Shown: positions 15,875 to 31,072 of the stretch, piece by piece | Layout: each line of letters starts with the position of its first letter | Position numbering within the stretch: the first letter of the stretch is position 1 | NCBI GenBank assembly: GCA_026985785.1 | Contig: JALSPT010000172.1 | Span: 1-32,568, forward strand | Direction of reading: 5' to 3' | Origin: Anaerolineales bacterium | GTDB taxonomy: Bacteria; Chloroflexota; Anaerolineae; Anaerolineales; DRMV01 | DNA length: 32,568 nucleotides | Translations under genes and position numbers: made by a program | Notes under the pieces: model-generated | Told to the model about the DNA's origin: nothing | Database searches by the model: none | What the model saw: only the letters and a program-made list of their open reading frames with translations

Positions 15875-16198
15875 ATGCCGGTTTACACTTACCGTTGTGA
15901 CGCGTGTGGTTTTACCTTCGACCAACGACTGGGATTCAACGATGCTCCCCCAACCCGCTGTCCCGAATGCGGTGCGGAGGCATTGTATCGCGTCTACAAG
16001 CCGGTGGGCATCGTGTTCAAAGGCTCTGGCTTTTACGCCACCGATCACCGCTCACCCTCCGGCACGAAAACCAGCGGCAACGGGAAAGAGCCAACCGCCA
16101 AAACGGAACAAAAAGCCGAAAGCAGCGCCGAGAAAAGCCCGGCAGCCAACAAAAAAGGCGAAGCCAAAGCCACCCCAAAGGCCACAACCACAGCGTAG
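15875..16198 (+). CDS. FmdB-family zinc ribbon protein
   Basis: MPVYTYRCDACGFTFDQRLGF...PTRCPECGAEALYRVYKPVGIVFKGSGFYATDHR with Lys/Ala-rich tail. Confidence 0.9.
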   Translation: MPVYTYRCDACGFTFDQRLGFNDAPPTRCPECGAEALYRVYKPVGIVFKGSGFYATDHRSPSGTKTSGNGKEPTAKTEQKAESSAEKSPAANKKGEAKATPKATTTA

Positions 16199-16280
16199 GC
16201 ACCTCCTTCGTCGTCGCGCTGTCCAAGACATCGTGGAAAAGCGTTGCACGGATAGCCTGCAAGGGGGCATTCCACCCGCG

Positions 16281-16496
16281 CAGGGCTTTTCAATAATAGC
16301 CAAATCTATCGCATTTTGCCGCGCCAAGGCTGATCTCACCCATCCCCCAGCCGCCTGACGGCGGCTTTCCCCCTTCCCTCTCTTAGTAAGAGAGGGAAGG
16401 GGGTGCCCAAAAAGCGCAAAATGCGCTTTTTGGGCGGGGGTTAGGAGAGATCTTCGTCTCTGGAGTAACCAAGTGCAAGACTTTTGAAAAGCCCTG
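16281..16496. mobile_element. MITE-like non-autonomous element, 216 bp
   Basis: TIRs CAGGGCTTTTCAA (16281-16293) / TTGAAAAGCCCTG (16484-16496), directly flanked by CCACCCGCG at 16272-16280 and 16497-16505; no coding capacity; internal hairpins 16369-16403 and 16405-16435. Confidence 0.8.
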
Positions 16497-16537
16497 CCAC
16501 CCGCGCAGGGTGAGCCCATCCCTCTCCCTGCCCATGG

Positions 16538-16543
16538 TATAAT
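16538..16543 (+). promoter_or_regulatory. -10 box TATAAT, 6 nt upstream of ATG 16550
   Basis: TGGTATAAT-CGCTCC-ATG; no SD. Confidence 0.65.
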
Positions 16544-16549
16544 CGCTCC

Positions 16550-17290
16550 ATGGCAAAGAAAAAACCTCTACCTCCAAGCACCAGCCAACCGCTGGTGGTA
16601 AGTGCTTTTTACGCCTTCATCGTGGTGGCCTTCGGGGCAGGGTTGCTGGCAGGCTATTTGCTGTGGGGGGGAAATCACCCCGCCCCTCAGCAGCAGACTG
16701 CGGCTGCCCAGCAACAGCCCCAGGCGCAAAACCAGCCCAACGGCACTCCCACCGCCGCCAAACGCTATGACGTCGACACCGACGACGACCCCAGCATCGG
16801 CCCCAAAACCGCGCCGGTTACCATCATCGAGTTCTCCGATTACCAATGCCCCTACTGCCGCCGTTGGGCCGAGCAGGTCGAAGGGGAATTGCTCAAAACT
16901 TACGGCGACAAAATCCGCATCGTGTACCGCGATTTCCCCCTCACCAGCATCCACCCCGAAGCATTGCCCGCCGCCGAAGCCGCCAACTGCGCCGGCGAGC
17001 AGGGAAAATACTGGGAATACCACGACGCCCTCTTTGGGCGCAAGCATGGCCTGGGGCACGACGCCTACCTGGCCTATGCCAAAGACCTGGGGCTGAACAT
17101 GGCACAGTTCACCCAGTGCCTGGACGAACACCGCTATCAGGATGAGATCAAAGCCGACCAGCAATATGCCATGCAACTGGGTGTGCGCTCGACGCCGACC
17201 TTTTTCATCAACGGCATCCCGGTGGTCGGTGCCCAGCCCTTCTCGGTGTTCAAGCAAATCATCGACAAAGAACTCAAGAACGCCCAGTAA
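16550..17290 (+). CDS. Membrane-anchored DsbA-family thiol:disulfide oxidoreductase
   Basis: N-terminal TM segment; TIIEFSDYQCPYCRRWAEQVEGELLKTYGDKIRIVYRDFPL; cis-Pro region GVRSTPTFFINGIPVVGAQPF. Confidence 0.93.
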   Translation: MAKKKPLPPSTSQPLVVSAFYAFIVVAFGAGLLAGYLLWGGNHPAPQQQTAAAQQQPQAQNQPNGTPTAAKRYDVDTDDDPSIGPKTAPVTIIEFSDYQCPYCRRWAEQVEGELLKTYGDKIRIVYRDFPLTSIHPEALPAAEAANCAGEQGKYWEYHDALFGRKHGLGHDAYLAYAKDLGLNMAQFTQCLDEHRYQDEIKADQQYAMQLGVRSTPTFFINGIPVVGAQPFSVFKQIIDKELKNAQ

Positions 17291-29954: not shown

Positions 29955-31072
29955 AGGTGTTGCACTTTATTGATAATGGCCGTATGGGAGGAGCCCAAAC
30001 ACTGCTGTCGAACATCTTGCCCCTTTTACCTTCCTTTGGAATAGAAAATCGGGTAGTTGTTTTGGGGGAGGGCCGATGGTTGGCAGCGCGGCTTGGAGCC
30101 AACAGAGTGCCTGTGGAAGTGCTTAACCTCCCTCGGTGGAAAATGAATGTCATGCCCGACCTTGCTAAAGTTATCCGTTCTTTTCACCCCGACGTTATCC
30201 ACACCCATTTGTTTAAATCGGTAATGTTAACCACATTTTTGAAGGCGAGGGGGGCAATACAAACCCCTGTAGTGGTTCATGATCATCAAGGTTTCTATCC
30301 ACAAAATTGGAGATTTTACTATCCTTTCCCAGTCCGTTGGGCGTTGGAAGTGATATATCAAAGGATGCTTGCTCACGTAGAGCGCATCATTGTTCTCACT
30401 AAAGAAATGAAAGAAAGATACGAGCAAGCGTACCACGACGTCCCTTCGGATAAAATTGTGCTTTTACCTAACGCCATAATTTATCATAAGCGCACAACAG
30501 AATGCCTAAATTTTCGAGAGAAGTATGGATTGCCTTCAGATATCCCTCTTGTGACCATGGTGGGGCGCTTTGCAAAAGAGAAGCGTTGGGATTTGTTTGT
30601 AAAATTGGCCTATCAATGCCGGGAAGAAGATATCGCTTTTGTGGGTATAGGAACGGGCAAGTTGTTTTCACGGATAAAAAAGCAAATCAACGCTTTACGG
30701 CTCAAAAGAGTATTTTTACTGGGAGCACGTCAGGATGTGGATTGCTTTCTCAGGCAATCCACCGTTTGTGTTCAAACCTCCGTGCGAGAAAATTTTAGCC
30801 TCTATGTGATAGAGGCGATGAGATGGGGATGTCCTGTGGTGGCGATGTATAATGGGGGGACAGAACACATTATTGAACACGGCCGCACAGGCTTGCTTGC
30901 GCCGTTTGGCCGAGTGCAAGAAATGTGTACTCTAACAAAACGCTTGCTATCTCTGCCTGAGGAGCGAGAGCGGCTCTCTCTTTTGGCTTATCAAAAAGTC
31001 TTGGCACAATATACAATACAAGCCGTTTTACCTCAGTGGGTTGCCTTTTACCAAAATCTATCGCCGCCTTAG
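29951..31072 (+). CDS. GT4-family glycosyltransferase
   Basis: MKVLHFIDNGRMGGAQTLLSNIL...VTMVGRFAKEKRWDLFVKL...SVRENFSLYVIEAMRWGCPVVAMYNGGTEHIIEHGRTGLL; ATGA overlap with asnB. Confidence 0.9.
   Translation: MKVLHFIDNGRMGGAQTLLSNILPLLPSFGIENRVVVLGEGRWLAARLGANRVPVEVLNLPRWKMNVMPDLAKVIRSFHPDVIHTHLFKSVMLTTFLKARGAIQTPVVVHDHQGFYPQNWRFYYPFPVRWALEVIYQRMLAHVERIIVLTKEMKERYEQAYHDVPSDKIVLLPNAIIYHKRTTECLNFREKYGLPSDIPLVTMVGRFAKEKRWDLFVKLAYQCREEDIAFVGIGTGKLFSRIKKQINALRLKRVFLLGARQDVDCFLRQSTVCVQTSVRENFSLYVIEAMRWGCPVVAMYNGGTEHIIEHGRTGLLAPFGRVQEMCTLTKRLLSLPEERERLSLLAYQKVLAQYTIQAVLPQWVAFYQNLSPP

Follow-up and report, generated by a model that had tools for sequence, protein, structure and literature searches.

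Sequence comparison supports the identification of the 216-bp unit studied here as a multi-copy MITE of ISAs1 type, and its interior appears to be a repeat in its own right. The whole account, an ISAs1-type non-autonomous transposon with a nested palindrome resembling the rickettsial palindromic elements (RPEs), has in our estimate a probability of about 85%. In the proposed mechanism, an ISAs1-family transposase would bind the CAGGGCTTTTCAA ends in trans and move the 216-bp unit, duplicating 9 bp of target. The interior would be a second, independent repeat, a cloverleaf palindrome of ~90-155 bp of the RPE kind, which may also insert alone, in frame, into genes, and which would now be carried as cargo by several MITE families that different transposases move. 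MITEs are usually explained as shrunken copies of a parent IS. The MITE interior here is a separate palindrome common to unrelated MITE families and protein genes, which points to selfish DNA at a second level, and suggests one mobile element nested inside another.

The analysed stretch of 32,568 nucleotides (the window) is contig C172 of the host genome G000, which comprises 1.8 Mb in 261 contigs and is 81% complete; the genomes from its genus and family with which it was compared are MAGs of Anaerolineales. Read directly, the exact order at positions 16272-16505 is CCACCCGCG, CAGGGCTTTTCAA, 190 bp, TTGAAAAGCCCTG and again CCACCCGCG. The two 9-bp target duplication copies thus occupy 16272-16280 and 16497-16505, and the terminal inverted repeats (TIRs) 16281-16293 on the forward and 16484-16496 on the reverse strand. 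Between these lie, on the forward strand, the left subterminal arm of the ISAs1-type MITE (16294-16331), recognised by conservation among copies, the palindromic core (16332-16452), matched by the covariance model R1 with 115.5 bits, and the right subterminal arm (16453-16483), recognised by copy comparison. With its 216 bp (<600 bp), perfect 13-bp ends and no transposase gene, the unit at 16281-16496 has the make-up of a MITE; both the sequence and the host copies agree in this with the original prediction, which had described a MITE of this length with 13-bp TIRs and a 9-bp duplication. A 14-bp reading of the duplication, suggested at the time by a CAGGG that follows the right copy, is a local coincidence, since the remaining copies show 9 bp. 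The upstream neighbour encodes a zinc-ribbon protein (15875-16198, forward strand; PF09723), and the downstream one a DsbA-like thioredoxin (16550-17290, forward strand; PF13462, PF01323). The promoter that had been placed just beyond the element was recognised by the TATAAT box of the DsbA-like gene at 16538-16543 (forward strand), which starts 41 bp beyond the element end.

A search of the host genome with the element, as had been proposed along with the prediction, showed it to be multi-copy rather than a single occurrence. Twelve further copies were found, 11 of them nearly full length with 89-92% identity, and several truncated copies besides, many located at contig ends; these copy numbers are minima, because MAG contigs break at repeats. 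The target duplication was assessed in 13 distinct two-ended copies, including that of the window, by comparing the 9 bases outside each end. All nine bases matched in 7/13 copies and eight of nine in 4/13, so that 9-bp duplications are found in 11/13 copies; as a control, ends paired across different copies never gave more than 6/9 matching bases. The two copies in which the duplication is absent are neighbours on contig C41 (G000:C41:3250-4479), where two MITEs of the window type lie 1 kb apart, each without target duplication, which suggests a rearrangement between copies. It is doubtful that the family is currently active, because its copies are ~10% diverged. The searches yielded no orthologous locus in which the site is empty. 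The same MITE, with its left end deleted and an apparent duplication GCTCCTGAG kept, was also found on a 1315-bp contig of a Hyphomicrobiales bin (JALSNA010000502.1; L140), as a result of either mis-binning or transfer.

The CAGGG termini and a duplication in the range of 8-10 bp had been likened to the ISAs1 family, and this likeness was matched by ISAs1 elements of the same family and order as the host. ISAs1 transposases are present in the relatives G005, G007, G008 and G012. G007, of the same family, contains a 1307-bp ISAs1 element that terminates in CAGGGCTTTTCGTT and CAGGGCTTTTTCAAG and is flanked by a perfect 9-bp duplication, GACGGCCTG; its transposase frame is interrupted by a stop. 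The end CAGGGCGTTTTCAAGG lies beside the ISAs1 transposase gene of G005 (same genus) and the end CAGGGCTTTTTTAAAG beside that of G008, the ISAs1 of G040 has the end CAGGGCTTTCTTAA with the duplication CCCACCCGG, and ISAs1 copies in G030 and G058 have duplications of 10 and 9 bp, respectively. The NCBIfam ISAs1 model NF033564 matches the transposases of G007 (E 7.8e-14) and G005 (E 6.8e-46). The window MITE and the same-family ISAs1 elements have up to 10 first end bases in common, its CAGGGC-type terminal repeats agree with those of ISAs1 elements from the host's own family and order, and the duplications, 9 bp in the window family and 9-10 bp at the relatives' ISAs1 copies, fall within the 8-10 bp of ISAs1. 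Mobilisation of the window MITE by an ISAs1-type transposase is well supported, because ISAs1 transposons of the same family have very similar ends and 9-bp duplications, and we hold it to be very probable. It is quite improbable that the ends derive from another IS family, e.g. IS4-type, and share CAGGG and a 9-bp duplication with ISAs1 by chance; a host genome without a parent and a weak match of the G005 ISAs1 protein to the IS4 model would suit such an origin, but the end bases shared with same-family ISAs1 elements, together with the 9-bp duplication, argue against it.

Like ISAs1 IS and MITEs, the window element has CAGGGC... ends and a 9-bp duplication, and ISAs1 elements of the same family have near-identical ends. 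It differs from an ISAs1 IS in its length of 216 bp, in having no transposase, and in an interior that is unrelated to an IS, and the host assembly yielded no parent for it. A full-length parent IS elsewhere in the genome had been called plausible; in the assembled host genome, 81% complete and with repeats lost at contig breaks, neither PF01609 nor PF13808 was detected, and 21/21 exact GGGCTTTTCAA sites belong to MITE copies. As the ISAs1 transposase is absent from this assembly and the driver was not seen in the host itself, we conclude on ISAs1-type ends and not on a proven driver. At the level of the genus, an ISAs1-type transposase with CAGGGCTTTTCAA specificity probably worked, because G002 (same genus; L117-L130) has a different but related MITE in which the CAGGGCTTTTCAA ends enclose other GC-rich hairpins. 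The contigs of G002 often break inside this MITE. Two further candidates were set aside: the CAGGGCTTTTCCA repeats of G007 (some 20 occurrences of this end motif) belong to a different MITE of ~153 bp (L075, L091) and are not copies of the window MITE, and the ISAs1 contig of G012 has, by eye, a different end, CAGGGCAAACGCATC.

The interior of the MITE contains the two strong hairpins that the original prediction had described. Two further parts had been missed, another hairpin at 16349-16366 and an outer stem that pairs 16332-16348 with 16436-16452; together they make the interior a cloverleaf. This core, 121 bp long (16332-16452), consists, all on the forward strand, of the outer stem (left strand GATCTCACCCATCCCCC, 16332-16348; right strand GGGGGTTAGGAGAGATC, 16436-16452), side hairpin A (AGCCGCC TGAC GGCGGCT, 16349-16366), whose sequence varies between core types, the central hairpin CCCCCTTCCCTCTCTTAGTAAGAGAGGGAAGGGGG (16369-16403), conserved between core types, and side hairpin B (GCCCAAAAAGCGCA/TGCGCTTTTTGGGC, 16405-16435). 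The stem and side hairpins were recognised by folding and covariation, the central hairpin by searches of the host and GTDB genomes and covariation. The single-strand folding energy has a z of -12.4, and 0/200 shuffles were as good. Within the window MITE family, two pairs changed on both sides; in hairpin B, the window copy alone has a G-C pair replaced by A-T, and the central hairpin has a T-A/C-G exchange with pairing retained. Over the complete set of cores, about 16 dissimilar sequence types could be told apart for side hairpin A and likewise for B; almost every type folds better than its letters do when shuffled, and thus the pairing was kept while the sequence was replaced. This could be due to structural selection, to palindrome correction at replication or to exchange between elements. 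So stable a fold, the compensatory changes and the position of the window copy just upstream of a promoter could also belong to no transposon at all but to a regulatory element or structured RNA such as a terminator or attenuator. We consider this highly improbable in view of the 9-bp target duplications with unrelated flanks, the lack of a T-run after the hairpins and the inconsistent placement of the window MITE family relative to promoters; the arm changes also fit palindrome correction at the DNA level.

The nested palindrome is not confined to the window family. The R1 model relies on a hand-picked alignment with the structure supplied, so that its matches lean towards that structure; it matched the core at 66 distinct places in the host genome and at numerous places in the majority of genus members and in several genomes of the family; further out in the order, some genomes (G018, G032) gave weaker matches. 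The central hairpin was found at 48 places in GTDB genomes, 47 of them in Anaerolineales MAGs and one on a short contig of the Hyphomicrobiales bin. Among 111 distinct cores in the fetched loci, a non-random sample, 94 sit in the MITE families A, B, C, D and F, which have unrelated ends, and 17 lie outside. Family A, the window type, has the end CAGGGCTTTTCAA and a 9-bp duplication; family B the end TGCATNNTCAANC and a 4-bp duplication, mostly YTAR; family C the end CTGRTTGACTGACAAA and a duplication of about 9 bp; family D the end CTGGTGATTACCC, with a 9-bp duplication in 1/2; and family F, which is ISKra4-type, the end GGGTGCANNCAAATG and a 9-bp duplication. Since ends and duplication lengths differ among them, these families imply movement by different transposases. 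The MITE interior is not mere filler; it is a palindromic module common to other element families. A possible sixth core-bearing family, with the end TTACGCASTTG, was noted by eye in G001.

Single cores of 90-98 bp were also found within genes, most of them read as insertions of about 30 aa; DLSPPPTAAGGRPLPSLTKGGEGDGGRGEIY is an example of such a core peptide of about 30 residues. Several of the 17 cores outside the MITE families measure 90-96 bp and are in frame; their carriers in the host are glyS (L258) and polX-like (L255) and menD-like (L270) genes, the latter two named by eye, and in G008 a uvrD-like gene (L066; named by eye). The host glyS has 34 residues (between 498 and 533) against 7 in the solved homologue 7lu4. 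A single core also lies within a phosphotransferase-like gene (L289, named by eye). The host uvrA (named by eye) and metH contain in their reading frames a DUF559 domain (PF04480; 1.5e-26 and 2e-39, respectively) with core matches on both sides, the core pairs being at 30416-30510 and 30943-30982 of contig C188 (L281), where one match is cut by the contig end, and at 1045-1143 and 1594-1692 of contig C139 (L185), where the matches are weak. The same order of core, DUF559 and core is present in uvrA of G003, G005 and G008, and G024 has DUF559 and palindrome-like peptides in a valyl-tRNA-synthetase-like frame. The loci bearing DUF559 are L281, L185, L057, L059, L203 and L199 (uvrA, metH, ValRS-like).

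These genic copies bear on how the core came to be shared. The main rival explanation attributes the sharing to recombination or conversion between MITE families, the palindrome itself never having been mobile; it would account for side-hairpin types common across families in related genomes and for the co-variation of the palindrome arms, which is expected from template switching or conversion. We think it unlikely, as free cores without MITE ends lie in frame inside unrelated genes and cores surround DUF559 in uvrA and metH. An independently mobile palindrome, which would have been acquired by progenitors of the MITEs and have spread along with these, is to us the probable explanation, if by no means an assured one. 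For its mobilisation, the co-location with DUF559, a Vsr-like endonuclease, makes this protein a possible agent, which we put forward tentatively; it offers a testable candidate mechanism by which palindromes inserted in frame, such as those of Rickettsia, could be mobilised. The full combination, in which the core, with the window MITE as one of its carriers, is independently mobile, inserts in frame into essential genes, owes its amplification to five or more unrelated MITE systems (ISAs1-type, ISKra4-type and others) and has, as its autonomous form in genes like uvrA and metH, a larger relative with a DUF559 endonuclease between two palindromes, we would give close to an even chance, with the odds slightly against it.

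RPEs are short palindromes of about 100-150 bp that lie in frame in unrelated housekeeping genes (PMC10969869). The window-type core resembles them in being inserted, also in frame, in unrelated genes (glyS, polX-like, menD-like, uvrD-like, uvrA and metH), a likeness that is drawn from the pattern of insertion. The core differs in its host, Chloroflexota, and in its four-stem cloverleaf, and it also lies within several MITE families and adjoins DUF559. REP/BIME sequences are dispersed palindromes of 20-40 bp with many copies (PMC3733652); the core, too, is a dispersed many-copy palindrome but is much larger (90-155 bp) and sits inside MITEs and genes. Inspection revealed no REP tag GTAG or CGTC at the core end, and the core begins with GATCTC and ends with GAGATC. 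No description of the palindrome, or of DUF559 flanked by palindromes, was found in the open-licence literature, which is weak evidence of novelty.

Family F shares the core and the 9-bp duplication with the window family and differs from it in its GGGTGCANNCAAATG ends, in its transposase, whose C-terminus matches the ISKra4 model NF033572, and in a promoter phasing that is not seen in the window family. The host genome contains about 27 oriented copies, the majority of them flanked by 9-bp duplications. Beyond the right end, 17/24 host copies have a -10 box at a distance of 10-60 bp, mostly at 38-40 (shuffled control: mean 3.2, maximum 8), as against 6/25 beyond the left end. The full-length IS of the family F type in G005 likewise has a -10 box beyond the transposase 3' end in 12/14 cases, ten of them at 37-40, and beyond the opposite end in 3/15, so that one element end is strongly preferred beside promoters in both G000 and G005. 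When the fetched sites were pooled (G000, L262-L290; G005, L325-L354; G003/G023, L389-L408; ends GGGTGCANNCAAATGTYGTAGA), a strict -10 box was found at +37 to +40 in 49/165 distinct ends, against a background of 0.3 per position; outside the duplication, at +16 to +20, a TTGAC-like -35 became apparent. The MITEs and IS of family F thus seem to be spaced at a constant distance upstream of sigma70 promoters, which could reflect either target choice or later selection. A partial match at L162 was rejected as an ISKra4 transposase, being a chance match.

For ISKra4 and ISLre2, a preference at the level of the family for 50-250 bp from genes has been described (PMC9208149). The open-licence literature yielded no description of a fixed ISKra4 promoter distance, again weak evidence of novelty; such a distance would provide a clear example, in bacteria, of transposition phased by promoters. 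The window MITE family is not enriched for promoter phasing, a strict -10 box being found within 104 bp of only 3/25 ends, and the promoter-adjacent position of the original prediction therefore holds for the window copy and not as a general property of its family. The window copy itself has its TATAAT at +41.
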